Positions 6,816 through 50,059 of a stretch of DNA of 64,000 bases are shown here, one piece after another. The DNA is from Asparagopsis taxiformis (taxonomy: Eukaryota; Rhodophyta; Florideophyceae; Bonnemaisoniales; Bonnemaisoniaceae): positions 46,859-110,858 of the forward strand of contig JALQPE010000221.1 of assembly GCA_030407315.1 (NCBI GenBank), written 5' to 3'. The notes beneath the pieces were generated by a model, which was given only the letters and a program-made list of their open reading frames with translations, was not told the origin of the DNA and made no database searches. Every line of letters begins with the position of its first letter. The stretch's first letter is position 1. The position numbers were made by a program, and so were the translations under genes.

Positions 6816-6848
6816 CGTCTGTGTTTTCGGAAGTGGACGCGGACGTCC
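6816..6848 (+). repeat. Terminal inverted repeat, left copy outer end
   Basis: Starts CGTCTGTGTTTTCGG and ends with the palindrome-like GCGGACGTCC. It matches the reverse complement of 32345-32377 at 31 of 33 positions, and equals the outer end of the right copy (50027-50059) in mirror image. Confidence 0.85.
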
Positions 6849-6945
6849 AGTCTCTCTAGTACGGGTCCTAGTCGGCCCCGAGATTTACTAGAACAAATGA
6901 ACGTCCGCGTCCAAAAAAAATAAAAAAATTTTGGATGCGGACGTC

Positions 6946-7074
6946 CACTTTCTCTAGTACATATGGCGGAATACTAGGGCCCGACATCCACTTTCTCTAG
7001 TATATATGTCGGAATACTAGAGCCCGACATCCACTTTCTCTAGTACATATGGCGGAATACTAGGACCCGACATC
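6946..7074. repeat. Subterminal 43-bp tandem repeat (3 units)
   Basis: Three 43-bp units, each with CTAGTACATATGGCGGAATA (or a variant) followed by a CCCGACATCC motif. The mirror position in the right copy (49714-49928) has five units, so copy number changed after the two copies separated. GGACGTCC/GACATCC motifs here recur at all four element ends, as expected for transposase-binding sites (inference). Confidence 0.75.
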
Positions 7075-7200
7075 CAGTATACAATATATCAGCGAAAACC
7101 GGGAGGGAAGAAATTACAGCGGATGGTAAACTCAGGGCCCATATCGGACCGTATTTTATTCTCTCATTTACGAAACTGCTCGTATACAATACGTCTCTCT

Positions 7201-7392
7201 AGAATAGGAAATACATATCTGGTCAGAATAGGAAATAAATACCCGGTTAGAATAGGAAATACGTATCCAGTCAGAATACGGAATACGTATCCAGCCAGAA
7301 TACGGAATATGTATCCAGTCAGAATACGGAATATGTATCCAGCCAGAATATGAAATACGTATCCAGCCAGAATACAAAATACCTGTCAGCAT
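7201..7392. repeat. 24-bp tandem repeat (8 units)
   Basis: Eight imperfect units of about 24 bp beginning AGAATA and ending near CCAGTC/CCAGCC. The right copy keeps about four (49500-49595). The frames across it (on both strands) are repeat artefacts. Confidence 0.75.
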
Positions 7393-9406
7393 ATCGTCGA
7401 TCACCCAGCTCCCTCACTATCGCGTTCTCCCTACCATCCGAACGCCATGCACCACCATTCGCACATACTTCAAGAACCCTCACGACCTTGATTACAAAAA
7501 ATCCGCTCCTTCCCAATACCATCCCCGCTTTCCTCGACACCACCCCAGCCCATTAAATCATCAAGACATCAAACACGAACATGGTCAGCAAAATCTCACA
7601 CCACTTGAAACCCACTCTCACTTCTATCGTATGCCCGAAAATATACACATACCAGAAACACCTCACAGCTTCATTCCCCATCTTCCTAGATCCCTTCTTC
7701 ACTCTCCTTCAGTCCTGCCGTTCCTGCTTCACCACTCCTGCATCACATACAAAACATCAACCCCAACAGTCAGATTCAAAAGCAACGCTTACCACGACAG
7801 ATATCCTAGAAACTCCCTTACTTACCTCTCCGAGAGGATCCATCCATCACACAAAATACAAACCATGATCCAAAAACCTTGCAATGAATAATCAAAGTCA
7901 GCAGTCCATATCTTCGCAAAACAAGTCTTGGTGCTCAGTGAAACTTACCTTCTGTCATCAACATTCCTGCACCATCTACACAACATCGGAATCAACCACA
8001 ACAGTCAGACTCAAAACCAACCTTCCCTCGCTGCATACTTTCAAAACTCGCACACTTACCTTCGCTCCACACAATACACACCATGACTCAATAGGCTTCC
8101 AATGAAAAATATCGCATCAACGGAAATAGTCAGACTCAAAACCAACCTTCCCTCGCTGCTTACTTTCAAAACTCGCACACTTACCTTACCTGTTCCATCC
8201 TGCACACAATAAAAACCATAAATCACGTAATCGTGTAGCCAAGAAAAGTAGTCAGCATTCCGCATCTTCGCACAACCGGTCTGGGCGCCCAATGTGACTT
8301 ACCTTCCGTCATCACTATTCCTCCATCACCTACGCAACATCGGAATCAATCGCAACAGTCAGATTGAAAACCAACGTTTCCCTCGCTACATACCCTGAGA
8401 ACTCGCAAATGTACCTCTCATCCATCCTACACACAATACAAACCATGATCCAAAAACCTTGCAATGAATAATAATCATAGTCAGCAGTCCATATCTTCGC
8501 AAAGCACATCTTGGCACTCAATGAAACTTACCTTCCGTCATCAACATTCCTGCATCATCTACACAACATCGGAATCAACCACAACAGTCAGACTCAAAAC
8601 CAACCTTCCCTCGCAGCATACTTTCAAAACTTCACGTACCTCTCTTCCATCCTCCGCTCAATACACACCATGAGTCAACAGGCTTCCAATGAAAAATATC
8701 GCATCAACGGAAATAGTCAGACTCAAAACCCACGCTTCCCTCAATGCATACCCTCGAGATTGGAACGAACGTACGTTCGCGAATCTTGATCAAGATTCGC
8801 ACACGTACAAAGCAAAGGCGGTCAAAGAATCTCAGTCGGTGATGAGGGCGGAGTGGAGCCTGCGGCGTCGACCGGACAGCTTTCAGCGTCCGCTTAAGTC
8901 TTGCTGTGCATACTCGAAATCATCGCCGGCAGTGAGATTGAGTATGGCCCAAGCCATGGTCTCTGAATCCCCGAACAATGAGATCCGGATCGAGAACAAC
9001 GAATATAAACATATAATCATATATATGAGAATCCATTTGCTTTCCTTACATGATCCGTGGCATATCCGCTGTAAAGCACATTCAGATTCCACGAAGTTCG
9101 GAAATAAAAAAGTTTATTATTACAAATGAATTAATTGAAAATTCATCTCCCAGGGCAGTCGTTCGTCCTTCCATGCACACGTTGCCAGCACGCAATGTGA
9201 TGTAACAGTTGGAAATGATTGAACTCTCGGTTAAATTCCACCGTTGGGATGTCAGCTGGAGTGAGCACAAAACTACTACCCACAAAAACTACGAACACGT
9301 TACATTCCAAGTCTCGAAAGCACCACAAAAATAAAATTGGTCGCATCTGGACGGCACAGTCTCCCCTGTTCAGCTCGCAATCCTCCCTTTTGCGTCAAAA
9401 CTCGAC
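7393..9406. repeat. Leader region of the transposase gene with imperfect long repeats
   Basis: No convincing gene. From about 7890 to 8760 there are three to four imperfect copies of a block of roughly 200-300 bp. Each includes CATCAACATTCCTGCA-type and ACTCAAAACCAACCTTCCCTC-type text and an AACTTACCTTC motif, which on the minus strand reads as a GAAGGTAAGTT splice-donor-like word. The stretch has no stop-free frame longer than about 145 codons. It is absent from the right copy because of the 3.3-kb deletion. It may be a non-coding leader/promoter of the transposase or an embedded satellite. Confidence 0.4.
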
Positions 9407-12400
9407 ATGGAATGCAAGTATGAAGGGTGCTTCTACTACTGCGTAGATGCTTATGCGCTCGCGCTGCATGAGCGAACGTGTCGCTACCGTTTCAACCCCT
9501 CTCCCCAACATTTCAACAACGCTCGTGTCCCTGCCGTCACCCATGAGCCTGCTCGAAACGGCGACCATGATTCCCCGCAACCCAGCTCCCCAGACCCAGA
9601 ATCTGGTCGTGCTTCCTCCAGCGACTCACCCTGTGACGCTCCACTGCCACCAACCTCAACCCCCTCCCGCGCAGACCTCCTCGTGCAATCCCTCGCCGCC
9701 AGTCTCACAACCCTCGAGTACAAGGCCGGCGCTGGCCGCGTGAGCGAAGTCATCACCATCCTACAAGACCCCGCATTCTCCCTAGAAAAGTTCAACAGCG
9801 CCGTTCGCACCGTAGAAGAATGTCGCCACGTTACCGCTTCCATGGTCGAAACACATTTCCGCACCGAAGGTTACAAGAGCCACATCATTCCAGACAAAAC
9901 TGGTAAGTACTCGGCACAGCTGTACCTCCGCGACCCAGTCGACATGCTCCGCAGGCAGTTAGCACTGGCTAACGACCAAAATACTCTCTTCCACCCCTCC
10001 CCACAGACCGCCCCAGACGGCACCGCAATATTTTCTCATCCCCTACACACAGAATTCGCGAAAACGCTGCACCAGGTTACTAGACAGCGCGTGCAGCTCT
10101 CGGAAGATCCACAGGTCGTATGGGCAGAGGAAACTGATCCCACACCTTCCTCCTTTGCCGGCCTCCTCCAAGTGTACTCCGACAAGAGCAGCACAAGCCT
10201 CAAGAGCTCCGCAATCGTCGCATACCCCATACACGTCACACTGCTCAACTTCTCCGCCCCCCTCCGTCGCCACTGCATCCGTACCGGCCTCACCATCGTC
10301 GGGTATCTTCCGTACATTGTTAACCCTTCGTCCAACGCCTTGTTCGGTGATGAAATGCCGACAACCTCTAGTTCTGCTAGTCGCGCTCGCAAAATTGATA
10401 TTCTTCATAAAGCACTCGAAAAAGTGTTTTCGTCCCTATCCACCGCGTTCTCTTCCGGGTTCCCCTGCACAGACTCCACTGCAACTGCCCGCCAATGCTT
10501 TCCCATCCTAGCCAATTATTGCTGCGACTTTCCAGAGGCCAAAGAGCTGTCATGCACTCGCAACAGCACTACCACCACACATCCCTGCCACCGCTGCTAC
10601 ATCCCCGCCACTCAACTTGAATCCACCGCGCCACACCAGCCCCGCTCCCTCGATGATACACGCTCTGCACGCCAAGAGAGCGCTCAGGAGCATACAACTG
10701 CTCCGCTCGAAGCTCTCTCCCTCCTCGAACAACACTCTGTCCTCGAATCGACCGCTCTTTTACCCACCAACAGTCCCCTAGACCCCTACAACATTTTCTC
10801 CTTCGAGCCTCTGCACAATCTCCACCTCGGCATCTCAAAGCTCATCAAACAGTGCATTGTCCACCGCCTCAGCTCCCCAGACCTCACCACCACCACTGCC
10901 TCCCATTCCGGGACACCTCGCACCTTCAAGAAGGTGAAAAAATCCATCCTCGCCGGCTCAAACAGCATTCTGTCCGCTATCGAACGCGACTACTACATCA
11001 CCGGTCTTCATGTCGACTTCTCCAAGGGTGAGAAGGGCACCAATTTGAACGGCCTCTTCACGGAGGACGGCATACGCGGCATGCTCGCAGCCAAAGACTA
11101 TCACCATGTCGACATGGTGTTCCCTTTCATCGCAGCATTCATTGACACATGCTGTGACGAAGTAGAGACAGCCCCCCTCACTTCCATCTGCACGCAATAC
11201 TCTGACCTCGTCGCATGGGTCATGAAACGCGGTCGCATCAAGCACTGGACTGCCGCCGAACTAGAAAGCCTCCAGAACTCCATTTCCTATTTCAAACAAT
11301 CAATGCTCTCCACCCTCGGCCCATTCCACACCACAGGTCTCAAAACTTTCAAGTTCCATCTTCTAGACCATCTTCCCGGTGACTTGCAGAGATATGGCGC
11401 CCTGGAACACATTGATGCAGGCCCCTACGAACACTCGCATCTTCTGTTCAAACAGAGTTATAGGAAAACCTCTCGAAGGCGCTCCACAGCCATGGAAGAG
11501 ACTATTCGCCACATGGAATTCTCCTTGGCCACTCCAACTGGTCATACCCCATCGAACACATTGGGAAACGCACGCATGATATCGCCCACAGACGGTGCAG
11601 TACTCGTTCGCGACGGATTCACCGTTGCACTGCACGACTTTGCCTCCCTGCTGCCCGATGCAACCCTCCTCGTTGCAGATATCGACGGACAGCCCGATCC
11701 TGCCACTCTTTTGCCTCTGCACAACTCCTCGTTCCCGTCTGGCACCATAACGCTATTCCAGCAACTCGGTGACACAGCTGCACAAGCGTTCCTCACCCTC
11801 GCTAGACTGCGCGCCACGGCAGAAGGCCCTCCAATACATGACATGGACATTTCCGTCACCGTGGTAAAGTCCGCCTACGTCATGGGAGGGTACGTCCCAG
11901 ATGCCGACGACTTTGACCCGCACAGTGGCATGCTTCGCCCCACAAACGTGTCGAGGCACAAGCAGCAGCGCGTCTTTGCAACTTCATCATTCGGCCCCGC
12001 AAAGAGATCGCAGTACTCCTTTGTCGTCATCTCCGGAACTGCCGATGACTACAGAACCATATGGGTAGGGCGCGTCCTGGCACTGGTACGCCTGCAGTCT
12101 CCAAACCTGTTTCAACCTGTAGAACTCGCTTTCGTTCAGTATATGACCTGCTTTGCCCCAAAAACCGCTGTGGAAAAATCACTTGGGTGCATTTGTTTAA
12201 AGTGGTCCACATGGGACCCGGACAACGGATCCGTTGACAGCAATGACACTGCATCCCACAGTGCAGGTGGTCCTTGGTTTGACCTCATTCCTGCATCTAC
12301 TATATCTGGCACCGTGCACATCGTACGAAGTAACTTTCCAGTCAAGCCATTTACGAAACAAATGCACTGGTCGGACCACCGTTTCTATCTCAACCGCTTC

Positions 12401-12448
12401 TACACCAACACTGATTACCAGTTCACAGATGATAATGAAGAAGAATAA
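9407..12448 (+). CDS. Putative transposase, KDZ/Plavaka-like
   Basis: An intact 1013-residue frame from ATG (GACATGG context) to TAA. The N-terminus carries a small zinc finger (C3, C8, H21, C25), then a Pro/Ser/Thr-rich linker (about 35-85). A cysteine cluster (about 370-410) precedes the core. Two motifs suggest the RNase-H-like transposases of the KDZ/Plavaka type common in fungi: FEPLHNLHLGISK (about 466) and KFHLLDHLPGDLQRYG followed by an E/H-rich YEHSHLLFKQ...TSRR stretch (about 649-690). This is a resemblance to the pattern K-x-H-x-L-x-H-x-P-x-D-x-x-x-x-G...E, not a database match. Catalytic acids cannot be assigned by eye. The C-terminal ~150 residues (IWVGRVLALVRL) could be a small beta domain. 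It is the only intact copy; the right one lost its N-terminal half. It is convergent with the coiled-coil gene. Confidence 0.55.
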   Translation: MECKYEGCFYYCVDAYALALHERTCRYRFNPSPQHFNNARVPAVTHEPARNGDHDSPQPSSPDPESGRASSSDSPCDAPLPPTSTPSRADLLVQSLAASLTTLEYKAGAGRVSEVITILQDPAFSLEKFNSAVRTVEECRHVTASMVETHFRTEGYKSHIIPDKTGKYSAQLYLRDPVDMLRRQLALANDQNTLFHPSPQTAPDGTAIFSHPLHTEFAKTLHQVTRQRVQLSEDPQVVWAEETDPTPSSFAGLLQVYSDKSSTSLKSSAIVAYPIHVTLLNFSAPLRRHCIRTGLTIVGYLPYIVNPSSNALFGDEMPTTSSSASRARKIDILHKALEKVFSSLSTAFSSGFPCTDSTATARQCFPILANYCCDFPEAKELSCTRNSTTTTHPCHRCYIPATQLESTAPHQPRSLDDTRSARQESAQEHTTAPLEALSLLEQHSVLESTALLPTNSPLDPYNIFSFEPLHNLHLGISKLIKQCIVHRLSSPDLTTTTASHSGTPRTFKKVKKSILAGSNSILSAIERDYYITGLHVDFSKGEKGTNLNGLFTEDGIRGMLAAKDYHHVDMVFPFIAAFIDTCCDEVETAPLTSICTQYSDLVAWVMKRGRIKHWTAAELESLQNSISYFKQSMLSTLGPFHTTGLKTFKFHLLDHLPGDLQRYGALEHIDAGPYEHSHLLFKQSYRKTSRRRSTAMEETIRHMEFSLATPTGHTPSNTLGNARMISPTDGAVLVRDGFTVALHDFASLLPDATLLVADIDGQPDPATLLPLHNSSFPSGTITLFQQLGDTAAQAFLTLARLRATAEGPPIHDMDISVTVVKSAYVMGGYVPDADDFDPHSGMLRPTNVSRHKQQRVFATSSFGPAKRSQYSFVVISGTADDYRTIWVGRVLALVRLQSPNLFQPVELAFVQYMTCFAPKTAVEKSLGCICLKWSTWDPDNGSVDSNDTASHSAGGPWFDLIPASTISGTVHIVRSNFPVKPFTKQMHWSDHRFYLNRFYTNTDYQFTDDNEEE

Positions 12449-12525: not shown

Positions 12526-14039
12526 TCAACCATCCTCCATTACGCCAAAACCGTTATCAGCAGTGGCTGCATGGCGCCGCTCCATGCCCCCATACTGTGG
12601 GGCATTGATTTCGACATTCAGGTTTGCACTCAGGTGTCCAGCATATGGGTCAACGACGAAAAGTTCTGCGCCAATTAGTCCTTGCGCAATCACACAATCC
12701 ATTACAGCACCGAGGTTTGACGTAATATGCGATTGAATCCAATCCTCGGACACTAGAACAAGTGATGAGCAGCGGTTTACATCATCAACGACATGAACAA
12801 TTCCAGACCCCTCTCCGCTTTGCCACACTTCAACAGCCTCTCTCGTCACAGTACGGCTTGCAAACACATGCCGTGACTGTGCACTAGTGCACTAGTCCGC
12901 TGTTCGCTCTCGACAACGTCCGTTTCTTCCCTTGCTTGCGAGCCTTGGAGACAAGACATGCAGTACACCACCATACCAACTAATTGCTGAAAAGCTACCC
13001 CCACATATTGACTGTACCGCCTTGTAAACTCCTTCTGCCGTGCACCTCCTTTCCCCTTCGGTTCATCCAAACACTCCACAGTAGTCACTAGCCAAGCATC
13101 CAGGCGCGCCAGCGTTAGTATGCTCGTCTCTATGTCCATTACTTGTTCTGGTCGTATCGAATAACCCCTGAAGATGTCCAGCACATTCACAGCTACTCGG
13201 TTGTTAAACCATGCATCACCATTCACTTCCATTTCGAAGCTGTCAGGAACCATGCCTTTGCTGTATCGCAGCTCTGAGAACGGTGCCGTTCGCCACCTCC
13301 CCATATCCAAATCACCGTTGCTTTCCCGTTTCAAAAGCTTCTCAGACGCTTCGCGCTTTTGATCCTCTCGCTCGTCCATCTCAGCTCGCGTCGTCAGCAT
13401 CGTGCATCTAGACATTAATTTCGTGTACCCCAGCGAACCGAACAATCTGTCCCTCGCATTACGCTTCCGTGCACTCATCACGTCGGACAGTTTCTGCGTC
13501 ACCTTCACTTTCAATTCCTTGCTCCCCGCCACAGCCTCTTGACAGCACACACGCTGCTCCTCATCGGAAAACACATCACACCACGGACTTTGACGCAGTA
13601 CGTGTCGCACCAAGTCATTCAGCAGATCACTCTCGTCTCTGTACGAAGGTGTATACCACTGCAGATTCTTGATGATATAGCCCGGAGGGGTAGCAATATA
13701 TCCTACACCGTTTTCGCTCCAAAGTGTCCCTTCTACCGGCTCTACCTCGATGGTACGTCCAGTCCAACGTCTCTGCGTTTGTTCCGCTATAGGGTCCAGC
13801 TCCATAGTCTCGTTCTTGCACCACTTTGTCAGGTTTTCCTCAACCGCCCTAAGAACTCCAAGGTATTTCACAGGAATGGCTTTCTGTATTTTCGACTTAC
13901 CGCCACCGTGATCACTGATTCTACCTGTTCTCGCAATTGCAGTAAGGCTGGCATTTTCCGCCTGCAGAGTCTTCACCTTAGCCTCCAACGCAACTATCTC
14001 CGTGGTGAGCGCCTTGTTTGCTATGTCCTGGCTAAACAC
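12526..14039 (-). pseudogene. Coiled-coil protein, downstream frame (left copy, frameshifted)
   Basis: This is the second part of the element's coiled-coil gene. It lacks its own ATG: the first codon in frame is GTG at 14039, inside the overlap with the upstream frame. It begins with a leucine-zipper-like coil (LTTEIVALEAKVKTLQAEN), then a helical domain with the family segments seen at 2766-4292 (VTQKLSDVMSARKRNARDRLF...LGY; FEMEVNGDAWFNNRVAVNVLDIF). In this copy a tandem 8-bp duplication (GCACTAGT twice, 12881-12896) shifts the frame near the end. The final ~113 residues (12526-12867) are read in another frame. The right copy has only one GCACTAGT and reads through. The full domain should be about 500 residues. 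Confidence 0.6.
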
Positions 14040-14818
14040 TTTTTTTCCAGCTCCGCGATCTTCTTCTTCTGCGCATTGATGCGACTCGCCATTAAATCGA
14101 TGGATTCCGGCGGATGCAACCTCTCTGCCCTCACCGTCCCCCCATCTCCCACGCTATCGGGATTATGATGTCCTCCATCGGCAATAGCCTGACGTCGCGG
14201 GGGCGTTACGCGCATATTTGGCACCAATGACAGTCTGTTGTGACGAGGCCCGCACTCCGGCTGCTCTCTCCCCTCAGTACCACCTGACCGCCGATGATAG
14301 TTGGCATCCTGTGAACGTTGCTCAGAAACAACATCCCTTGCCGCTATCCTCGGGTCCCTGACTGCATTACCTGCTGGGGCTGATGTACTCGGCATAGTTG
14401 GCGCAGTGGGGGTCACAGCCTCCAGTGTCTCGCGAACCCCCGGCTGGGACTCCGTCTGCAGCACCTCCGCATCTGCCAACCCGGGAGGAACTACCTTTGC
14501 CATAGCACTCTGCCGCAATTCCAACATGTTTTGAGCCACTATCATGTCATCATCATGATGTTCACTGTCCCTGCGAGCACGCTTGCCTCGGTCAAGCCCC
14601 ATCTCTCTCCGCGCCGTTCCTCCTTCCTCACTTTCTCGCTGCGGATCCCCAGTTCTGCGCCGGTCCGTCTTGCGACTACCGGACCGCGGTTCAATGCTGC
14701 CGGTAGGCCCAGACCGCTTCTTCGCACGGGATTGTCGGGCACTCGATACAGCAGCTGCTGACCGGTTTTTCTGGAGGCCCGGAGGCTTTGGAGCTTTCTT
14801 CGCAATACGCGGCGGCAT
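14021..14818 (-). CDS. Coiled-coil protein, upstream frame (basic N-terminal region)
   Basis: 265 codons from an ATG at 14818. The first ~90 residues are strongly basic and low-complexity (RIAKKAPKPPG, SRAKKR, RKTDRRRTG), followed by a disordered Pro/Ser/Thr-rich stretch. The end is the start of a coiled coil (RINAQKKKIAELEKK) whose heptads continue in the next frame at 14039. The two frames overlap by 19 nt and the same overlap exists in the right copy. The basic region would suit DNA or chromatin binding. It is transcribed towards the transposase gene. Confidence 0.6.
   Translation of the reverse strand: MPPRIAKKAPKPPGLQKNRSAAAVSSARQSRAKKRSGPTGSIEPRSGSRKTDRRRTGDPQRESEEGGTARREMGLDRGKRARRDSEHHDDDMIVAQNMLELRQSAMAKVVPPGLADAEVLQTESQPGVRETLEAVTPTAPTMPSTSAPAGNAVRDPRIAARDVVSEQRSQDANYHRRSGGTEGREQPECGPRHNRLSLVPNMRVTPPRRQAIADGGHHNPDSVGDGGTVRAERLHPPESIDLMASRINAQKKKIAELEKKCLART
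14039..14045 (-). promoter_or_regulatory. Candidate -1 ribosomal frameshift site (A AAA AAG)
   Basis: The heptamer A AAA AAG sits in the correct zero-frame phase (codons GAA AAA AAG). A -1 slip leads into the downstream frame at GTG TTT AGC, exactly where that frame opens. The coiled-coil heptad pattern continues across the junction. The identical A7G sequence is in the right copy (46161-46168). A shared old one-base mutation or transcriptional slippage on A7 are alternatives. Confidence 0.45.
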
Positions 14819-15059
14819 AATGAAGCCTTCCCGGAAGCGATGGAAGGATTGAGTTGCACGAGATACAAAAAAGATTGCTGTATAGTGTCGGTAACCACAA
14901 CGGTCTGCGATGAACGTTCAGGTCAGGTCAAGTACCGGAGAATACGCCAACAGCCCAGATTGTATACGGTAGGCAGTCATCAACAGTATTTAATGAGGTA
15001 CAATTACAGCTGTCGAGCTAGGCCGCGAGCACCCCTATGTCCGGAAGACGTCCTGATTT

Positions 15060-15250
15060 GAATTAAAATTTGGGCTATTCTCAAAAACATGCACATGTGA
15101 ACATGTTTTTGAGATGGGGGTGTGCCGTACGGCACAATCGACCCGCTGAAATCGATGTTTTTTGCAATATTTTTTTCTGCCCTGAATTGTAGAATTTCTG
15201 GGCTGGACAGCAATGCAACTGAGCTGGACATCCACCGGGCGTCCATTTCA
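15060..15250 (+). repeat. Palindrome-rich gene-boundary cassette (A)
   Basis: About 190 bp lying in the 660-bp spacer between the coiled-coil gene start (14818) and the MTase-SET stop (15479). It has three parts: a hairpin with arms CTCAAAAACATG and CATGTTTTTGAG around CACATGTG; the perfect 14-bp palindrome GTGCCGTACGGCAC; and a GGACATCC...GCGTCC end. Copies with the same order occur at 19030, 30270, 35690, 36185, 41010 and 44965. The rest of the 14819-15478 spacer holds nothing else I can name. Confidence 0.7.
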
Positions 15251-15478: not shown

Positions 15479-18400
15479 CTAATTCCATGCTCTAAACGCT
15501 GTCCCATAATGAACGTAGAGCTCCTGCCCCGGACGGATATCGCGGATTGCACGTACTACAATGATCTTCGGATTTTCTAGGTCCTTCGCCTTGAGCTTCT
15601 TCCCCGTCGAACCGCTGCTGTAGTTCTCGACAAACTCGACGTTGGCCATCCGCCTGGTGTCTTCCGCCGGAGTGTCCTCACCTCGCAAATACCGCGGGTC
15701 GTTGATGAACTGCGCCGAACAGAACGGAGCCGGAACAATCCAAATTGGATGCTCGATGTTTTCGTCGTCCTCCGCTGTTGCATACAGCTTGATGGCATAC
15801 ATCAAGAATGTTTCCTTCGTTATCGCCATGTGACCCTCTCCGTACGCGAACCTCATCGACTCCTTGCTCATATCAGAGTACACAACAGTTCCGTAGTATG
15901 CACATACTTCGTCGCCAACATTAAATGTCTGTTCAGCGAAGAGCCCTCTTCCTGCATTTGGATGCTTAATCAGCGATGGTCGAACGCTCAATTTTTTCGC
16001 AACACAATCGTGTGCCCGCATCACGCGAGGGTTTTCAGTTTGCAACCAGCGGCGCAGGGAAGGTGGCCAATAATGTACCGGTTTTTCCATGTGCTCGTGC
16101 GACGCAATCGACTCTGGGCACAGCTGCCAGAGGTACTGCCGAATATATTTCGGGAACCTCTGGTACAGGGGAAGGCCAGGTGGGGGTTCGATGATCCTGC
16201 GTTCCCTCTGTGTACGCATCGTGACAGAGGGGGACGCCAAGAACTTCTCAGCACTCTGTTTCGCTTCTGTCGTGACCCTCATGTCAGTGTTGTTTGAAAG
16301 AATTACACGTGACATGACTGCACACAGCTTTGGAAGCGATCGTGCCACACACAATTTGTCCATGTCACTGCCGACGAAAACACGGTGCTCAGGCAAGCTC
16401 ATAGCTGCTTTTCCCGTTGCGAAAGTGCCAGAGAATGGATCGACAACAATATCACCAGGCTGTGAATGCTGGCTGATCAACTCCATCATGAGAGCGACGC
16501 TCTTCTGCTCTGCACGAACTCTGACCGTAGCACCGGTTGTGCTCCTTGTTCGCCACACCATCTCATTCGAATCGATGGCGGGCATATTGATGGTGACGTT
16601 GCACCACGCCGGGTACGTGCCGTCCATGTATCCGTGGTTCCTATAGGCCACCATCTCGCTTCCAGTCTTGAACGGAACACCTCGCTTCCAGAAGTGGATA
16701 GCGACCTCTGCCATGTTCATGCGTTGGTACCTCTTCCGCCCCGGCATTTGATAGAGGTGCCCAGGTAGTCGGACAAACAACAGAGGTACCTCGTCAACGA
16801 AGAAAACTGAATTCCGAACGACGTCCTCCTCCTCCTCGTCCTCCTCCTCCTCCTCATCCGCACTTTCTTCGCCACTGTGCTGCGATGCTTCGGAGTCCGA
16901 ATTCATGGACGTAACCTCTTCTTCATCCGACCCGTCATCACTGGCAGCAGCATCGGTTGGGCCTTCTGACTGCGGTCCTTTGTACGTTTCCAAGTAATGG
17001 AACCATTCGTAGAACTGCAAAACGGAGCAGAACACGATGCCGTGGCCACCGGGGCGCAACAGCTCGTCAAACACTTCGATGCTAGCCTGCATATCTTCTG
17101 CAGTTAGCCTGTCGTACGAAGAGTTGGAATCGTTCCTCTTACGACGAACATTGTAGGGCGGATCAGTCAGAATGAGCTGAACGTTGCCCGTGATGGGCAC
17201 GTGTTCTCGGCTCTCGTCGGCACTGACCAAATCTTCGAAAGGGACGTCGTACACCCGGCAATACTGACTCATTTTCGAAAGAAAGTCCTTTGCGAGAGCC
17301 TGCCCTTCACTTTCCTGCTCTTCTGTCGCATGGGGTGACGGTGACGGGGGAGACGGCCCTTGGGCAGTAAGACTGGTCCTCCCAGGTCCAAGTTGAAGCC
17401 TGGTTGTGTGTCTTGTCGACGGAACCAAACCTCTCCCTCCTGTGTTGCGACGAGTGGGAGTGTCATCAACCGGCTTGGGGACCTTTTCTGCGTCCGCGGC
17501 TTGTGGTGCCGGGCGGAGGACAGCCATAACGTCTTCGTCGAGGGTGTCAAAGTACGCTGGCAGCTTGTCCGGATTTCCGCTTGACAAGTATATTTCCAGC
17601 GCCCCCCAGCGGTCGGACTCCGGCCAGGTGTACAGGTCCGGGTTGACGATAAGAAACTGCAACCGGTCGAAGAACTTCCTCACAAGGTCCCTAAATGCAC
17701 TGTGCTGCGCACTGGTTCTTGTCTCTACTTTTCCACCATATCCATCAGGATGAGATAGGGGAGCTTTGTCGTGGTAGAGATCTAGCTTCTGCTCCATCGG
17801 TGCGAATAGACCTTCATCGAGCACGTCAAACCAATGCTCACTGCTGTCGAAAATGATGTACGGCGCCATCAACTCTTCGAAGCTGGAAAACTTTGCGGCG
17901 AAGGCCACATCGGTCCAAGCATGGTATAAAACTTGAACCACGTAACAAGCTCGATTAGTGCTTTTCCGATGGGCTGGGACGCGTGCGGCTTCGTTCCCCT
18001 CTTCGGCCGCGTCGCCTATTCGGCGACGCGGCAGGTTCTTGTTGTGATTTCGGATGATAGACAACGCTTGGAAATACATCAATACCTCGAACGTTTCCGG
18101 TGGAGCAAGAACGAAGGCGCTTGGTTCCCCGCGCTGCGGCGCCTGTAGTGGCGAAGGAAGCATGTTACATCCAATAAGGAAGGTCTGCGGCACGATCCCA
18201 GAAAGGATGCAGTGCTCAACCCATTGCCCGATACGCTCATCCTGTCTTGAAAACTCGGCAATCGGTAATGCCAGACGAACAATCTGCTTGGCTCGCTCAA
18301 CGTTCATCTCTGCCATGACGATTTCGGCAACATCCGCCTCGACTCCAGCATTCTTCGAACGACCGCTGAAGGCCATGCTGAGTCGACCTTGCAGCGCCGC

Positions 18401-40659: not shown

Positions 40660-41531
40660 GGTTGTTGAGTTGGAAAGGAAAAGAGATGGTTGACGTTGAC
40701 GTATTCGAGTGATGTGGATGGTATGTTTCACGTTGAAGAATGGTCGTGAACGCCAATCGCTGGAAATAATAACACAATACAACCGAAATTTTGTTAGGTA
40801 CACACCTATCGTGACCGCTGGAATGCAAGAGAGGCAATCGAGATGTGAGTGTCCGTTCGGAACGGGCCCGAGTCGGGCTCTCGAAACCTGACGAGGTGGC
40901 GTGAAGCAGGCAGTGTCCTTGATGTGTAATGTGTTAAAATTACAGCTGTCAAGCTAGGCGGCTTTTGGGGCGGCTGCGAGCACCCCTTTATCCGGGGAAC
41001 ACCCTGATTTGAGTTAAAATTTGGGCTATTCTCAAAAACATGCACATGTGAACATGTTTTTGAGATGGGGATGTGCCGTACGGCACAATCGACCGCCGAA
41101 ATCGATGTTTTTTGCAATATTTTTGTGCCCGAAATTGTAGAATTTCTGGGCTGGCCAGCAATGCATCTGAGCTGGACATCCCCATGTCCAGTGGCCGTCC
41201 GGATGTCGCTCACCTGGTAAGCGTGATGCACCTGTGACAACCTATGTGACTGCAGTCACAGCCGCCATGGCGGCCGTGCAGTACAACACTCAAATACAGG
41301 GAATCACAATCTTTTTAAAATTTTTCTCTACCACGTATCCGTCACAACTTATTACCTACACCGGTTACGGGTTTCAAGACCTTTCCAGTGCTGTGTACCC
41401 GTATACTCTGTTCCGTTCGATATCAACCAGTGTTCCTCACGAAAGAGTGCAAACGTCACGAGATACGTCGTCAAATTTGACTGTCTCGCCGAGCGGTCGC
41501 CATCCTGTACCGAATTTCCACTCATTCCATT
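40660..41531. promoter_or_regulatory. Divergent promoter region, right copy
   Basis: Mirror of 18683-19555: a boundary cassette at 41010-41185 and the GCCGCCATGGCGGC palindrome near 41262-41275. It should drive both the ParB-dioxygenase (-) and MTase-SET (+) genes. Confidence 0.45.
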
Positions 41532-44500
41532 ATGACGAATAAGCGCAGGCGCAACAGCAATCCGATCGTTGACGACGCAACCGTGCCAATTCTGCGCGAA
41601 CCCGCTAGCCCTTGGGAGGATTCTAGTGACATGGGTACACGTCGAAACGTAGGTCGCGCCGCCCGCGAAACTACTCTCGCTGGCAAAGACTTCCTCCGCC
41701 TCTTGCTGGATTTATTCGCCCACTCAAGTTTCGCAGACTTGACGGACAAGCCGGGAGGTTTCACATACGCGGACCTTGGCGCTTGGGTTGCGCAGGGCAC
41801 GGAAGAACAATTTGCGGCGCTGCAAGGTCGACTCAGCATGGCCTTCAGCGGTCGTTCGAAGAATGCTGGAGTCGAGGCGGATGTTGCCGAAATCGTCATG
41901 GCAGAGATGAACGTTGAGCGAGCCAAGCAGATTGTTCGTCTGGCATTACCCATTGCCGAGTTTTCAAGACAGGATGAGCGTATCGGGCAATGGGTTGAGC
42001 ACTGCATCCTTTCTGGGATCGTGCCGCAGACCTTCCTTATTGGATGTAACATGCTTCCTTCGCCACTACAGGCGCCGCAGCGCGGGGAACCAAGCGCCTT
42101 CGTTCTTGCTCCACCGGAAACGTTCGAGGTATTGATGTATTTCCAAGCGTTGTCTATCATCCGAAATCACAACAAGAACCTGCCGCGTCGCCGAATAGGC
42201 GACGCGGCCGAAGAGGGGAACGAAGCCGCACGCGTCCCAGCCCATCGGAAAAGCACTAATCGAGCTTGTTACGTGGTTCAAGTTTTATACCATGCTTGGA
42301 CCGATGTGGCCTTCGCCGCAAAGTTTTCCAGCTTCGAAGAGTTGATGGCGCCGTACATCATTTTCGACAGCAGTGAGCATTGGTTTGACGTGCTCGATGA
42401 AGGTCTATTCGCACCGATGGAGCAGAAGCTAGATCTCTACCACGACAAAGCTCCCCTATCTCATCCTGATGGATATGGTGGAAAAGTAGAGACAAGAACC
42501 AGTGCGCAGCACAGTGCATTTAGGTACCTTGTGAGGAAGTTCTTCGACCGGTTGCAGTTTCTTATCGTCAACCCAGACCTGTACACCTGGCCGGAGTCCG
42601 ACCGCTGGGGGGCGCTGGAAATATACTTGTCAAGCGGAAATCCGGACAAGCTGCCAGCGTACTTTGACACCCTCGACGAAGACGTTATGGCTGTCCTCCG
42701 CCCGGCACCACAAGCCGCGGACGCAGAAAAGGTCCCCAAGCCGGTTGATGACACTCCCACTCGTCGCAACACAGGAGGGAGAGGTTTGGTTCCGTCGACA
42801 AGACACACAACCAAGCTTGAACTTGGGCCTGGGAGGACCAGTCTTACTGCCCAAGGGCCGTCTCCCCCGTCACCGTCACCCCATGCGACAGAAGAGCAGG
42901 AAAGTGAAGGGCAGGCTCTCGCAAAGGACTTTCTTTCGAAAGTGAGTCAGTATTGCCGGGTGTACGACGTCCCTTTCGAAGATTTGGTCAGTGCCGACGA
43001 GAGCCGAGAACACGTGCCCATCACGGGCAACGTTCAGCTCATTCTGACTGATCCGCCTACAATGTTCGTCGTAAGAGGAACGATTCCAACTCTTCGTACG
43101 ACAGGCTAACTGCAGAAGATATGCAGGCTAGCATCGAAGTGTTTGACGAGCTGTTGCGCCCCGGTGGCCACGGCATCGTGTTCTGCTCCGTTTTGCAGTT
43201 CTACGAATGGTTCCATTACTTGGAAACGTACAAAGGACCGCAGTCAGAAGGCCCAACCGATGCTGCTGCCAGTGATGACGGGTCGGATGAAGAAGAGGTT
43301 ACGTCCATGAATTCGGACTCCGAAGCATCGCAGCACAGTGGCGAAGAAAGTGCGGATGAGGAGGATGACGAGGACGAGGAGGACGAGGACGTCGTTCGGA
43401 ATTCAGTTTTCTTCGTTGACGAGGTACCTCTGTTGTTTGTCCGACTACCTGGGCACCTCTATCAAATGCCGGGGCGGAAGAGGTACCAACGCATGAACAT
43501 GGCAGAGGTCGCTATCCACTTCTGGAAGCGAGGTGTTCCGTTCAAGGCCGGAAGCGAGATGGTGGCCTATAGGAACCACGGATACATGGACGGCACGTAC
43601 CCGGCGTGGTGCAACGTCACCATCAATATGCCCGCCATCGATTCGAATGAGATGGTGTGGCGAACAAGGAGCACAACCGGTGCTACGGTCAGAGTTCGTG
43701 CAGAGCAGAAGAGCGTCGCTCTCATGATGGAGTTGATCAGCCAGCATTCACAGCCTGGTGATATTGTTGTCGATCCATTCTCTGGCACTTTCGCAACGGG
43801 AAAAGCAGCTATGAGCTTGCCTGAGCACCGTGTTTTCGTCGGCAGTGACATGGACAAATTGTGTGTGGCACGATCGCTTCCAAAGCTGTGTGCAGTCATG
43901 TCACGTGTAATTCTTTCAAACAACACTGACATGAGGGTCACGACAGAAGCGAAACAGAGTGCTGAGAAGTTCTTGGCGTCCCCCTCTGTCACGATGCGTA
44001 CACAGAGGGAACGCAGGATCATCGAACCCCCACCTGGCCTTCCCCTGTACCAGAGGTTCCCGAAATATATTCGGCAGTACCTCTGGCAGCTGTGCCCAGA
44101 GTCGATTGCGTCGCACGAGCACATGGAAAAACCGGTACATTATTGGCCACCTTCCCTGCGCCGCTGGTTGCAAACTGAAAACCCTCGCGTGATGCGGGCA
44201 CACGATTGTGTTGCGAAAAAATTGAGCGTTCGACCATCGCTGATTAAGCATCCAAATGCAGGAAGAGGGCTCTTCGCTGAACAGACATTTAATGTTGGCG
44301 ACGAAGTATGTGCATACTACGGAACTGTTGTGTACTCTGATATGAGCAAGGAGTCGATGAGGTTCGCGTACGGAGAGGGTCACATGGCGATAACGAAGGA
44401 AACATTCTTGATGTATGCCATCAAGCTGTATGCAACAGCGGAGGACGACGAAAACATCGAGCATCCAATTTGGATTGTTCCGGCTCCGTTCTGTTCGGCG

Positions 44501-44734
44501 CAGTTCATCAACGACCCGCGGTATTTGCGAGGTGAGGACACTCCGGCGGAAGACACCAGGCGGATGGCCAACGTCGAGTTTGTCGAGAACTACAGCAGCG
44601 GTTCGACGGGGAAGAAGCTCAAGGCGAAGGACCTAGAAAATCCGAAGATCATTGTAGTACGTGCAATCCGCGATATCTGTCCGGGGCAGGAGCTCTACGT
44701 TCATTATGGGACAGCGTTTAGAGCATGGAATTAG
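41532..44734 (+). pseudogene. MTase-SET fusion gene, right copy (frameshifted in the catalytic motif)
   Basis: Starts at ATG 41532 and follows the left protein closely. A one-base deletion in the CCC of the DPPYN codons (near 43056: GATCCGCCTACA, against GATCCGCCCTACA on the left) turns the motif into DPPTMF and stops at 43109. The remainder is open in the next frame (43121-44734), with the acidic insert slightly altered, the SAM motif and the SET domain intact. A small number of substitutions (for example IRPGQ to ICPGQ) are visible. Probably inactive as a methyltransferase. Confidence 0.85.
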
Positions 44735-45388
44735 GGTCACGAAAGATGTTTTCATTTCGACTACAAATAAAGCTACGTTCCAGAGTTGAAGTATATCATA
44801 TAATGCAGCATGTCCAGCCACCATTAGTCCAGGGTGAAACCTATTGAGCAGTACTCGCCTGTCAAAAACCAATCGTTCACACTCTAGGTGCACTTCGTCC
44901 GAGCAGTGAACCTGACTGCTTGGTTGCTGTTATGCGTGCAGATGCAATATACAAGACCAAGTTGAACTGGACGCCCGGTGGATGTCCAGCTCAGTTGCAT
45001 TGCTGTCCAGCCCAGAAATTCTACAATTCAGGGCAGAAAAAATATTGCAAAAAACATCGATTTCAGCGGGTCGATTGTGCCGTACGGCACACCCCCATCT
45101 CAAAAACATGTTCACATGTGCATGTTTTTGAGAATAGCCCAAATTTTAATTCAAATCAGGACGTCTTCCGGACATAGGGGTGCTCGCGGCCTAGCTCGAC
45201 AGCTGTAATTGTACCTCATTAAATACTGTTGATGACTGCCTACCGTATACAATCTGGACTGTTGGCGTATTCTCCGGTACTTGACCTGAACGTTCATCGC
45301 AGACCGTTGTGGTTACCGACACTATACAGCAATTTTTTTTGTATCTCGTGCAACTCAATCCTTCCATCGCTTCCGGGAAGGCTTCATT
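44735..45388. other. Spacer with boundary cassette H
   Basis: Mirror of 14819-15478. A cassette lies at about 44965-45165 in minus orientation (GTGCCGTACGGCAC, CTCAAAAACATG hairpin); the rest is unremarkable and precedes the coiled-coil start at 45389. Confidence 0.6.
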
Positions 45389-47672
45389 ATGCCGCCGCGT
45401 ATTGCGAAGAAAGCTCCAAAGCCTCCGGGCCTCCAGAAAAACCGGTCAGCAGCTGCTGTATCGAGTGCCCGACAATCCCGTGCGAAGAAGCGGTGTGGGC
45501 CTACCGGCAGCATTGAACCGCGGTCCGGTAGTCGCAAGACGGACCGGCGCAAAACTGGGGATCCGCAGCGAGAAAGTGAGGAAGGAGGAACGGCGCGGAG
45601 AGAGATGGGGCTTGACCGAGGCAAGCGTGCTCGCAGGGACAGTGAACATCATGATGATGACATGATAGTGGCTCAAAACATGTTGGAATTGCGGCAGAGT
45701 GCTATGGCAAAGGTAGTTCCTACCGGGTTGGCAGATGCGGAGGTGCTGCAGACGGAGTCCCAGCCGGGGGTTCGCGAGACACTGGAGGCTGTGACCCCCA
45801 CTGCGCCAACTATGCCGAGTACATCAGCCCCAGCAGGTAATGCAGTCAGGGACCCGAGGATAGCGGCAAGGGATGTTGTTTCTGAGCAACGTTCACAGGA
45901 TTCCAACTATCATCGGCGGTCAGGAGGTACTGAGGGGAGAGAGCAGCCGGAGTGCGGGCCTCGTCACAACAGACTGTCATTGGTGCCAAATATGCGCGTA
46001 ACGCCCCCGCGACGTCAGGCTATTGCCGATGGAGGACATCATAATCCCGATAGCGTGGGAGATGGGGGGACGGTGAGGGCAGAGAGGTTGCATCCGCCGG
46101 AATCCATCGATTTAATGGCGAGTCGCATCAATGCGCAGAAGAAGAAGATCGCGGAGCTGGAAAAAAAGTGTTTAGCCAGGACATAGCAAACAAGGCGCTC
46201 ACCACGGAGATAGTTGCGTTGGAGGCTAAGGTGAAGACTCTGCAGGCGGAAAATGCCAGCCTTACTGCAATTGCGAGAACAGGTAGAATCAGTGATCACG
46301 GTGGCGGTAAGTCGAAAATACAGAAAGCCATTCCTGTGAAATACCTTGGAGTTCTTAGGGCGGTTGAGGAAAACCTGACAAAGTGGTGCAAGAACGAGAC
46401 TATGGAGCTGGACCCTATAGCGGAACAAACGCAGAGACGTTGGACTGGACGTACCATCGAGGTAGAGCCGGTAGAAGGGCACTTTGGAGCGAAAACGGTG
46501 TAGGATATATTGCTACCCCTCCGGGCTATATCATCAAGAATCTGCAGTGGTATACACCTTCGTACAGGGACGAGAGTGATCTGCTGAATGACTTGGTGCG
46601 ACACGTACTGCGTCAAAGTCCGTGGTGTGATGTGTTTTCCGATGAGGAGCAGCGTGTGTGCTGTCAAGAGGCTGTGGCGGGGAGCAAGGAATTGAAAGTG
46701 AAGGTGACGCAGAAACTGTCCGACGTGATGAGTGCACGGAAGCGTAATGCGAGGGACAGATTGTTCGGTTCGCTGGGGTACACGAAATTAATGTCTAGAT
46801 GCACGATGCTGACGACGCGAGCTGAGATGGACGAGCGAGAGGAACAAAAGCGCGAAGCGTCTGAGAAGCTTTTGAAACGGGAAAGTAACGGTGATTTGGA
46901 TATGGGGAGGTGGCGAACGGCACCGTTCTCAGAGCTGCGATACAGCAAAGGCTTGGTTCCTGACAGCTTCGAAATGGAAGTGAATGGTGATGCATGGTTT
47001 AACAACCGAGTAGCTGTGAATGTGCTGGACATCTTCAGGGGTTATTCGATACGACCAGAACAAGTAATGGACATAGAGACGAGCATACTAACGCTGGCGC
47101 GCCTGGATGCTTGGCTAGTGACTACTGTGGAGTGTTTGGATGAACCGAAGGGGAAAGGAGGTGCACGGCAGAAGGAGTTTACAAGGCGGTACAGTCAATA
47201 TGTGGGGGTAGCTTTTCAGCAATTAGTTGGTATGGTGGTGTACTGCATGTCTTGTCTCCAAGGCTCGCAAGCAAGGGAAGAAACGGACGTTGTCGAGAGC
47301 GAACAGCGGACTAGTGCACAGTCACGGCATGTGTTTGCAAGCCGTACTGTGACGAGAGAGGCTGTTGAAGTGTGGCAAAGCGGAGAGGGGTCTGGAATTG
47401 TTCATGTCGTTGATGATGTAAACCGCTGCTCATCACTTGTTCTAGTGTCCGAGGATTGGATTCAATCGCATATTACGTCAAACCTCGGTGCTGTAATGGA
47501 TTGTGTGATTGCGCAAGGACTAATTGGCGCAGAACTTTTCGTCGTTGACCCATATGCTGGACACCTGAGTGCAAACCTGAATGTCGAAATCAATGCCCCA
47601 CAGTATGGGGGCATGGAGCGGCGCCATGCAGCCACTGCTGATAACGGTTTTGGCGTAATGGAGGATGGTTGA
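45389..47672 (+). pseudogene. Coiled-coil gene, right copy (two frames plus a one-base deletion)
   Basis: The upstream frame runs from ATG 45389 to 46186 (265 codons) and ends in the same A AAA AAG overlap as the left copy. The downstream frame starts at GTG 46168 but is interrupted near 46480, where one A of GGGACACTT is missing; it continues in the next frame (about 46480-47672) without the 8-bp duplication found on the left. This copy therefore shows the true C-terminus (FASRTVTREAVEVW...LVSEDWIQSH...), about 113 residues beyond the left stop. Together the copies define a protein of roughly 760-780 residues if the -1 shift is used. Confidence 0.65.
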
Positions 47673-47749
47673 AATTAGTGCAGTAAATGTGACGTTGACT
47701 AGAAGGCTTATCATGTAGTACATTATCAATAGAGTGCTGCGATTTAGAT

Positions 47750-49376
47750 TTATTCTTCTTCATTATCATCTGTGAACTGGTAATCAGTGTTGGTGTAGAA
47801 GAGGTTGAGATAGAAACGGTGGTCCGACCAGTGCATTTGTTTCGTAAATGGCTTGACTGGAAAGTTACTTCGTACGATGTGCACAGTGCCAGATATAGTA
47901 GATGCAGGAATGAGGTCAAACCAAGGGCCACCTGCACTGTGGGATGCAGTGTCATTGCTGTCAACGGATACGTTGTCCGGGTCCCATGTGGACCACTTTA
48001 AACAAATGCACCCAAGTGATTTTTCCAGAGCGGTTTTTGGGACAAAGCAGGTCATATACTGAACGAAAGCGAGTTCTACAGGTTGAAACAGGTTTGGAGA
48101 CTGCAGGCGTACCAGTGCCAGGACGCGCCCTACCCATATGGTTCTGTAGTCATCGGCAGTTCCGGAGATGACGACAAAGGAGTACTGCGATCTCTTTGCG
48201 GGGCCGAATGATGAAGTTGCAAAGACGCGCTGCTGCTTGTGCCTCGACACGTTTGTGGGGCGAAGCATGCCACTGTGCGGGTCAAAGTCGTCGGCATCCG
48301 GGACGTACCCTCCCATGACGTAGGCGGTCTTTACCACGGTGACGGAAATGTCCATGTCATGTATTGGAGGGCCTTCTGCCGTGGCGCGCAGTCTAGCGAG
48401 GGTGAGGAACGCTTGTGCAGCTGTGTCACCGAGTTGCTGGAATAGCGTTATGGTGCCAGACGGGAACGAGGGGTTGTGCAGAGGCAAAAGAGTGGCAGGA
48501 TCGGGCTGTCCGTCGATACCTGCAACGAGGAGGGTTGCATCGGGCAGCAGGGAGGCAAAGTCGTGCAGTGCAACGGTGAATCCGTCGTGAACGAGTACTG
48601 CACCGTCTGTGGGAGATATCATCCGTGGGTTTCCCAATGTGTTCGATGGGGTGTGACCAGTTGGAGTGGCCAAGGAGAATTCCATGTGGCGAATAGTCTC
48701 TTCCATGGCTGTGGAGCGCCTTCGAGAGGTTTTCCTATAACTCTGTTTGAACAGAAGATGCGAGTGTTCGTAGGGGCCTGCATCAATGTGTTCCAGGGCG
48801 CCATATCTCTGCAAGTCACCGGGAAGATGGTCTAGAAGATGGAACTTGAAAGTTTTGAGACCTGTGGTGTGAAATGGGCCGAGGGTGGAGAGCATTGATT
48901 GTTTGAAATAGGAAATGGAGTTCTGGAGGCTTTCGAGTTCGGCGGCAGTCCAGTGCTTGATGCGACCGCGTTTCATGACCCATGCGACGAGGTCAGAGTA
49001 TTGCGTGCAGATGGAAGTGAGGGGGGCTGTATCTACTTCGTCACAGCATGTGTCAATGAATGCTGCGATGAAAGGGAACACCATGTCGACATGGTGATAG
49101 TCTTTGGCTGCGAGCATGCCGCGTATGCCGTCCTCCGTGAAGAGGCCGTTCAAATTGGTGCCCTTCTCACCATTGGAGAAGTCGACATGAAGACCGGTGA
49201 TGTAGTAGTCGCGTTCGATAGCGGACAGAATGCTGTTTGAGCCGGCGAGGATGGATTTTTTCACCTTCTTGAAGGTGCGAGGTGTCCCGGAATGGGAGGC
49301 AGTGGTGGTGGTGAGGTCTGGGGAGCTGAGGCGGTGGACAATGCACTGTTTGATGAGCTTTGAGATGCCGAGGTGG
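47750..49376 (-). pseudogene. Transposase, right copy (N-terminal half deleted)
   Basis: Matches residues ~472-1013 of the left transposase and is open from the deletion junction to TAA at 47750, but has no start codon. The zinc finger and the FEPLHN part of the first core motif are gone; KFHLLDHLPGDLQRYG and the C-terminal domain remain. Several substitutions distinguish it from the left copy. It cannot act alone. Confidence 0.8.
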
Positions 49377-50026
49377 AGCGTATTTTTTGTAATCTAGGTC
49401 GTGAGGGTTCTTGCAGTATGTGCGGATGGTGGTGCATGGCGTTCGGATGGTAGGGAGAACGCGATAGTGAGGGAGATGGGTGATCGACGATATGCTGACA
49501 GGTATTTTGTATTCTGGCTGGATACGTATTTCCTATTCTAACCGGGTATTTATTTCCTATTCTGACCAGATATGTATTCCCTATTCTAGAGAGACGTATT
49601 GTATACGAGCAGTTTCCTAAATGAGAGAATAAAATACGGTCCGATATGGGCCCTGAATTTACCATCCGCTGTAATTTCTTCCCTCCCGGTTTTCGCTGAT
49701 ATATTGTATACTGGATGTCGGGTCCTAGTATTCCGCCATATGTACTAGAGAAAGTGGATGTCGGGTCCTAGTATTCCGCCATATGTACTAGAGAAAGTGG
49801 ATGTCGGGTCCTAGTATTCCGCCATATGTACTAGAGAAAGTAAATGTCGGGTCCTAGTATTCCGCCATATGTACTAGAGAAAGTGGATGTCGGGCCCTAG
49901 TATTCCGCCATATGTACTAGAGAAAGTGGACGTCCGCATCCAAAAAATTTTTATTTTTTTTTGGACGCGGACGTTCATTTGTTCTAGTAAATCTCGGGGC
50001 CGACTAGGACCCGTACTAGAGAGACT
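49377..50026. repeat. Outer subterminal repeats, right copy
   Basis: Starting at the deletion junction near 49376-49385, this mirrors left 6849-7506. It has about four 24-bp units (49500-49595) and five 43-bp units (49714-49928), then an A/T-rich stretch and the TIR. Confidence 0.75.
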
Positions 50027-50059
50027 GGACGTCCGCGTCCACTTCCGAAAACACAGACG
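50027..50059 (-). repeat. Terminal inverted repeat, right copy outer end
   Basis: GGACGTCCGCGTCC...AACACAGACG, the mirror of 6816-6848. DNA from 50060 on is unrelated to 6815 and leftwards. Confidence 0.85.

Follow-up and report, generated by a model that had tools for sequence, protein, structure and literature searches.

Can a transposon write chromatin marks on its own copies, and not just hide from those of its host? The question is raised by a locus in the red alga Asparagopsis taxiformis, where positions 6816-50059 of a 64,000-nucleotide stretch of contig JALQPE010000221.1 (C221:46859-110858; hereafter the window) carry a giant transposon that may do so. Besides a transposase, it encodes a predicted DNA methyltransferase (MTase) fused to a SET domain, a ParB-like protein fused to a putative 2-oxoglutarate (2OG)-Fe(II) oxygenase domain, and a coiled-coil-like protein. 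The assembly comprises 141.5 Mb in 3156 contigs, and the right edge of the window (64000) is the end of its contig. The original prediction described one ~19-kb unit with matching terminal inverted repeats (TIRs). The outermost TIRs do coincide to the base with positions 6816 and 50059, the inner ends being 32377 and 33770, and the first unit measures ~19.3 kb without an inserted long terminal repeat (LTR) retroelement, but the region is not one unit. It consists of two damaged copies in inverted, head-to-head arrangement, unit 1 (6816-32377, forward strand; 25,562 bp including the retroelement) and unit 2 (33770-50059, reverse strand; 16,290 bp, with ~3.3 kb gone at the transposase side); 1.4 kb of a copia pol gene lie between them.

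The element is abundant in the genome. With up to three mismatches allowed, its TIR was found at 2761 sites (1365 + 1396), the MTase catalytic site at 987 (488 + 499), and the dioxygenase HxD site at 910 (448 + 462), and the reversed control gave 0 in each search; were most copies near full length, the family would make up about one-eighth of the genome. Synteny was counted from match lists (139/150 SET rows, 123 transposase, and 35 ParB-2OG matches), and the gene-to-gene counts hold among the matches listed. Forty of the 44 transposase matches that share a contig with a SET match have one within 25 kb, 28 of these pairs lying 5.2-5.5 kb apart on opposite strands and nine 9.4-9.8 kb apart on the same strand. 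ParB-2OG is 13.3 kb from the transposase, on the same strand, in all five cases on shared contigs, and 7.9-8.0 kb from SET in six of eight. Measured from the ends, 25 of 28 dioxygenase sites are found inward of an inward-facing right TIR, 3.0-4.6 kb from it, and an inward-facing TIR is present within 14 kb of 16 of 22 MTase sites, ten of which are 10.1-11.4 kb from a right TIR. Identical 2-bp flanks, the expected target-site duplications (TSDs), occur at 6 of 12 end pairs, compared with 11 of 132 mismatched pairings. One copy of 20,042 bp (C52) has all four genes and a 2-bp duplication, with frame breaks in the transposase and ParB-2OG genes, and in another (C503) all four genes are open over the stretch read. 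Judged by this repeated synteny, the copy number, and target duplications at half of the end pairs, the four genes are mobilized together within the TIRs, as had been proposed, and have spread to roughly a thousand copies. Four shorter copies of 11-12 kb (C12a, C14, C49, and C90) have the same ends and 2-bp duplications, and no frame of at least 180 amino acids in them matches any of the four genes; they are evidently nonautonomous derivatives. These derivatives share repeats as well as ends with the element, and part of their middle matches nothing in the window.

The transposase of unit 1 (9335-12448, forward strand) is an open frame of 1037 amino acids, of which the 1012 from the ATG were used in the constraint analysis described below; that of unit 2 (47750-49393, reverse strand) is without its 5' part. 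It matches the Pfam model PF18759 (Plavaka) with an E-value of 3.9e-24 (85.9 bits against a cut-off of 26.3), as do, above the cut-off, all 123 genomic matches scored from 1208 candidates, and by this match it is a Plavaka transposase, of a CACTA-like lineage. A candidate for the CMCT-clade C(2)C motif in the frame is PCHRC, collinear with PCHIC in a distant, weakly matching frame (E 0.08). The link to KDZ transposons suggested by the original prediction was not borne out, and KDZ affiliation was rejected: the frame matches PF18759 and no KDZ model, and a KDZ search of the genome gave 0 matches, a search in which the controls were silent too. The TIRs are 34 bp long, on the left, transposase side at 6816-6849 (forward; beginning CGTCTGTG) in unit 1 and 50026-50059 (reverse) in unit 2, and on the right at 32344-32377 (reverse) and 33770-33803 (forward), respectively. 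The termini CGTCTGTG..CACAGACG fit neither TGT..ACA (PlavakaA) nor CATCA..TGATG (PlavakaB) as published, and would be a further Plavaka terminal type. The element is thus a Plavaka-lineage giant transposon of ~20 kb that presumably moves by cut-and-paste; it encodes two protein architectures for which we found no description.

The first of these architectures is the MTase-SET fusion, encoded in unit 1 at 15479-18733 (reverse strand) by a 1084-amino-acid frame (1065 amino acids from MTNKRRR) and in unit 2 at 41481-44734 (forward strand) by two overlapping frames. Within the single 1084-amino-acid frame, Pfam recognizes both N6_N4_Mtase (PF01555, 3.1e-15) and SET (PF00856, 1e-6; 29.6 bits against a cut-off of 22.4). 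The motif LTDPPYN at about residue 523 precedes VDPFSGTFATG at about residue 764, which is the beta-class order. The MTase part is similar to DpnA and CcrM, and it also matches the phage family phrog_67 (5.2e-17) and type II methyltransferases. On these motifs and matches it is a beta-class N6/N4 DNA amino-methyltransferase. According to the accessible text of PMC8885841, bacterial enzymes that methylate adenine have DPPY, and the motif suggests adenine specificity here. A prokaryotic source of the fusion was rejected: at least 78 prokaryotic loci match the query, and in all those listed the match is confined to residues 499-842, the MTase part, and does not extend into SET. A viral source of the fusions was rejected likewise: viral contigs, probed with two patterns per query, gave no confirmed relative among 49 and 92 pattern-matching stretches. 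The host also has a SET gene with an ePHD-FYRN-FYRC-SET layout, whose best match in PDB is animal-type KMT2C/D, a hint of an animal relative more than of a fungus. Fungal_trans and T-box, the latter a marker from the animal side, gave no match in searches that had no positive control, and a fungal host of Dikarya type is doubtful.

The second architecture, the ParB-like/2OG-Fe(II)-like fusion, is an open frame of 1321 amino acids in unit 2 (36662-40627, reverse strand) and is split over two frames in unit 1 (19262-23151, forward strand), where the LTR element breaks the 2OG-like domain. In the other 34 copies scored the frame is 1355-1450 amino acids long, and a single internal stop interrupts it in two of these copies. 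Four ParB-2OG proteins, main family and diverged relatives, share only 18-34% pairwise identity, with 61 of 808 fully occupied columns invariant, yet all four retain D-G-x-H-R in the ParB-like part (residues 327-331) and the HxD...H...R residues of the 2OG-like part (H1106, D1108, H1180, and R1196). The prediction of a 2OG-Fe(II) oxygenase domain is based mainly on these invariant residues. Its PGSH and the context of its distal histidine resemble PhyH-type enzymes. The key motifs of the ParB-like and 2OG-like assignment proposed earlier are present in 4/4 proteins, but no profile match accompanies them and the 2OG (double-stranded beta-helix) fold is unproven. The ParB profile gave no Pfam match in the main family; a diverged relative in the right flank gave a sub-threshold match to DndB (E 0.3). 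A three-relative profile of the 2OG domain found one chance match in PDB, a histidine kinase (E 0.64), and membership in TET/JBP was rejected, the single protein having no Pfam or PDB match. The LTR element in unit 1 is young, and its insertion point in the 2OG-like domain falls after the codon for the distal His and before that for the Arg.

The remaining gene, at 12846-14917 (reverse strand) in unit 1 and 45290-47672 (forward strand) in unit 2, is split over two frames in both, and forms one frame of 713 or 794 amino acids in C52 and C503. It had been described as encoding a basic coiled-coil protein. The first 300 residues of the 761-amino-acid C503 protein are indeed strongly basic (isoelectric point 10.2), but the whole is only mildly so (7.9), and the coiled-coil assignment comes from sub-threshold Pfam matches.

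Are these genes maintained? Observed over expected ratios of nonsynonymous to synonymous changes (substitutions pooled over 5-7 copies, with indels ignored and without phylogenetic correction) are 0.41 (p 0.0014) for MTase-SET and 0.46 (p 1e-5) for ParB-2OG, compared with 0.47 (p 0.005) for the transposase, and by this measure both enzyme genes are constrained to a transposase-like degree. They also recur in diverged relatives, MTase-SET in one, a SET remnant in another, and ParB-2OG in three. One relative occupies the right flank of the window (54483-61727; its 2OG part was not seen, and the contig ends at 64000). It comprises a small protein at the position of the coiled-coil gene (54483-55574, reverse), an MTase-SET (56519-58621, reverse) that is 30% identical over 614 alignment columns and has an N-terminal frame upstream of it (58622-60166, reverse; 28% over 96 amino acids), and the start of a ParB-like gene (61230-61727, forward) that is divergent from MTase-SET, as in the main element. 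A protein related to the small one (2766-4346, reverse; 23% over 175 amino acids) adjoins a ParB-2OG gene (1147 amino acids) and a SET gene just left of the window (L036). A second ParB-2OG gene (1077 amino acids) lies farther left (L115), together with a 721-amino-acid frame weakly collinear with the Plavaka transposase (E 0.08). These two loci form a 17-kb stretch (L115:183-8481 and L036:1180-8708) with repeats about every 5 kb between the genes; the ends of these relatives, which may be one element or two, were not found. A 1377-amino-acid protein from a public contig (P0002) is 34% identical globally and 28% in the best local stretch; it was found with a single-sequence query, and an alignment-based protein search found nothing.

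If the element carries mark-writing enzymes, where might they act? Both ends are rich in CTAG, with 9-11 sites per terminal 300 bp on both sides of all seven copies checked, three of which are noncoding derivatives; in unit 1 there are nine in the first 300 bp and nine in the 300 bp at the right TIR. The density is 30-34 per kb at the ends and 1.7 inside, and when the bases of each unit 1 end were shuffled 2000 times, no shuffle reached the observed count. The left subterminal region of unit 1 (6850-7411) contains tandem repeats of 43 bp and 24 bp, and the CTAG/CTAGTA arrays of the window lie at 6816-7115, 32078-32377, 33770-34069, and 49760-50059. A repeat of ~184 bp occurs upstream of the coiled-coil gene (15052-15233, reverse, in unit 1), between the divergent MTase-SET and ParB-2OG genes (19033-19216, forward, in unit 1; 40999-41181, reverse, in unit 2), and near the right end (30291-30472, forward, in unit 1); the copy between the enzyme genes is possibly a shared regulatory region. 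Inverted copies of this repeat (~184-250 bp) flank the MTase-SET cassette, as noted in C503, and among the contigs listed the cassette is in standard orientation in 22 and inverted in 16 of 38 pairs 5.2-8.7 kb apart. The two orientations may stem from one amplified inversion or from repeated flipping, by passive recombination or as a switch. In both units the right end also carries YAGTATTAY twice, at 51 and 134 bases inward of the TIR, out of five matches on both strands of the whole window. We take this string to be the binding motif of VANC21 of Arabidopsis VANDAL21. It was not found in PMC10398659, and the resemblance is probably a coincidence.

The original prediction also raised TET/JBP-style base oxidation, which the evidence does not favor: TET/JBP homology was not detectable, no cytosine-C5 methyltransferase (PF00145) was found in the genome in a search that was positive in 10 of 14 control genomes and that intron-split genes could escape, and CpG observed/expected is 0.96-1.02 in gene-bearing copies. 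Because this methyltransferase was not detected and the gene-bearing copies are not CpG-depleted, erasure of 5-methylcytosine (5mC) is not favored as the task of the putative 2OG domain. Some cytosine methylation or CpG decay is nonetheless conceivable, because the noncoding derivatives are mildly CpG-depleted and their C-to-T changes lean toward CpG.

From these features it is reasonable to suppose that the element methylates its own DNA and histones, and we tentatively favor, at a little short of even likelihood, the view that this giant Plavaka-type transposon marks its own copies on both DNA adenine and histone lysine and so keeps them in a permissive state. The MTase-SET protein would methylate DNA adenine (DPPY) and histone lysine at one place; the ParB-like domain would bring the second protein to element DNA, where its 2OG domain might trim or alter a mark; and candidate target sites are found in the terminal arrays, rich in CTAG on either side, and in the 184-bp repeats that adjoin the genes. 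The net effect would be self-written permissive chromatin in which element promoters and ends stay usable. The permissive reading is favored because N6-methyladenine (6mA) coincides with permissive chromatin rich in H3K4me3 (histone H3 trimethylated at lysine 4) in many eukaryotes, according to the accessible part of PMC12695648, and because some transposons encode proteins that reverse silencing by acting on arrays of motifs to which they bind, according to that of PMC10398659. A more ambitious version seems doubtful: a self-contained, two-part system of one adenine and histone writer and one ParB-guided mark-editing oxygenase, both aimed at the element's own CTAG-rich ends, in which the element would supply the DNA-methylation code of a host perhaps without 5mC and the invertible cassette might switch a co-expressed neighbor.

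Several observations weigh against the permissive self-writing that we favor. The link to 6mA in the same portion of PMC12695648 was drawn for enzymes of the MT-A70 and not the beta class, and DPPY is not proof of adenine specificity. SET domains usually have NHSC; because ND (N1011 D1012) stands in its place in all four alignment rows, SET activity is uncertain, and the SET gene of L036 has lost its MTase interior. Searches of Pfam, NCBIfam, PHROGs, PADLOC, and PDB gave no match to either the ParB-like or the 2OG-like part in the main family, and AlphaFold2 models of the 2OG-like domain, made from two-row alignments, have a confidence (pLDDT) of 30 and 31. The coiled-coil gene, with a ratio of 0.92 (p 0.45), is not significantly constrained. 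At the ends, ACGT and GTAC are likewise raised, to 10-15 per kb, if less than CTAG, which was one among 16 palindromes compared and whose sites, lying in tandem repeats, are not independent. In the four noncoding derivatives CpG observed/expected is 0.83-0.89 with TpG and CpA raised, and 19 of 55 singleton C-to-T changes fall at CpG, compared with 764 of 3470 C sites. Nor is the element uniform. Among the matches listed, three of the 40 transposase-SET pairs and two of the eight ParB-2OG-SET pairs lie at other distances, and a perfect MTase site lies within 20 kb on the contig for 40 of 100 perfect dioxygenase sites, a figure that mixes contig ends, mismatches, and deletions; two of four long copies read are without ParB-2OG, and six of the 12 end pairs, and unit 2 in addition to them, show no 2-bp duplication.

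The same features can be read in other ways. Adenine methylation regulates transposition of some bacterial elements, and the marks might control transposition itself, methylated CTAG-rich ends telling the transposase on which copies, or at which replication stage, to act. The bacterial type of the MTase and the dense CTAG within 300 bp of either end in 7/7 copies checked, three of them noncoding, would suit such a role, as would the activation of Spm by TnpA, which is correlated with DNA demethylation in the accessible text of PMC10398659; since CTAG may merely be a transposase-binding motif, and since this reading leaves the SET domain unexplained, we regard it as unlikely. Somewhat less probable again is a repressive cargo, with which the element would silence itself to limit damage or silence rival elements. 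SET proteins can write repressive marks, and the closest eukaryotic analogue that we found, bdelloid N4CMT, is a bacterial amino-methyltransferase with a chromodomain that recognizes silent marks, acts at active transposons, and deposits N4-methylcytosine at them (PMC8885841, in its accessible part). Yet N4CMT has SPPY where the element MTase has DPPY, and roughly a thousand near-alike copies look unrestrained.

The match to phrog_67 and type II methyltransferases and the adjacent, divergent ParB-2OG and MTase-SET genes could also indicate a virus- or phage-like modification module that guards the DNA of the element against a nuclease or a restriction-like defense of the host rather than against chromatin silencing. 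Among the four element genes no viral structural or replication gene was recognized, a SET domain and a TIR transposase are present, and viral contigs (two patterns per query) held no confirmed relative, all of which makes this explanation improbable. Least credible, and very improbable, is a single capture of host genes by one small TIR element, the rest being passive cargo. The damage to both window copies, and the copies without ParB-2OG or without all four genes, would agree with such a history, but one-time capture is unlikely because the enzyme genes are constrained and recur in diverged relatives; where the original prediction had allowed that the genes might not be co-mobilized, they proved to be co-mobilized. 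The permissive, self-written mark remains the reading that we prefer.

How does the element compare with systems already described? In Agaricales fungi, TET-bearing Plavaka transposons (Kojima 2025, PMC12730594) likewise have a Plavaka transposase, TIRs, 2- or 3-bp TSDs, and a transposon-borne dioxygenase. Their dioxygenase is TET/JBP, and the accessible portion of that paper mentions neither a DNA methyltransferase nor SET in these elements, whereas the present element is without detectable TET homology, has CGTCTG termini and a ParB-like fusion, and resides in a host in which no C5-methyltransferase was detected. Phytophthora HarbingerS and MuDR, cited in the same portion, are DNA transposons with a captured SET histone methyltransferase, but they belong to other transposase superfamilies, and fusion to a DNA methyltransferase is not mentioned there. 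Bdelloid N4CMT resembles the MTase-SET protein in fusing a bacterial beta-type amino-methyltransferase to a eukaryotic chromatin domain; it differs in being a host gene with SPPY and a chromodomain reader instead of a SET writer, which methylates transposons and is not carried by one (PMC8885841, same extract). In the giant Plavaka repeats of Amoebidium many of the genes code for tyrosine recombinases, in tandem clusters, with neither MTase-SET nor ParB-2OG mentioned in the accessible text (PMC11244446). Plant VANDAL/VANC and Spm/TnpA are alike in that transposon proteins at noncoding motif arrays change the element's own epigenetic state; they cause loss of methylation and, in the part of PMC10398659 at hand, are not described as writers of DNA or histone marks. 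Our literature search, in which bioRxiv and most subscription journals were not covered and some papers were available in part, turned up no transposon with MTase-SET or ParB-2OG, in agreement with the original prediction, which knew of no described element combining all four genes. Transposon-borne erasers (TET) and SET genes are known separately; here an element with roughly a thousand copies combines a predicted DNA-and-histone writer in one protein with a second enzyme predicted to edit marks. If active, the element would be a natural system for asking whether joint adenine-DNA and histone methylation suffices for permissive (or repressive) chromatin, and would show how eukaryotes can keep and spread bacterial-type amino-methyltransferases.

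Other features of the window concern its retroelements and flanks. The LTR retroelement inside unit 1 (23145-29407, reverse strand; 6,263 bp) has 300-bp LTRs at 23145-23444 and 29108-29407 that are 99% identical, and is of copia type as judged by eye from its translation. The copia pol fragment between the units (32378-33769, reverse strand), which lies outside the element, covers the integrase and the start of the reverse transcriptase. Flanking frames at 1088-2539, 5198-6859, and 52977-54008 gave no match where they were submitted to searches, and may belong to diverged relatives. Farther into the right flank, at 61861-62318, lies a tandem array of a 35-bp repeat.

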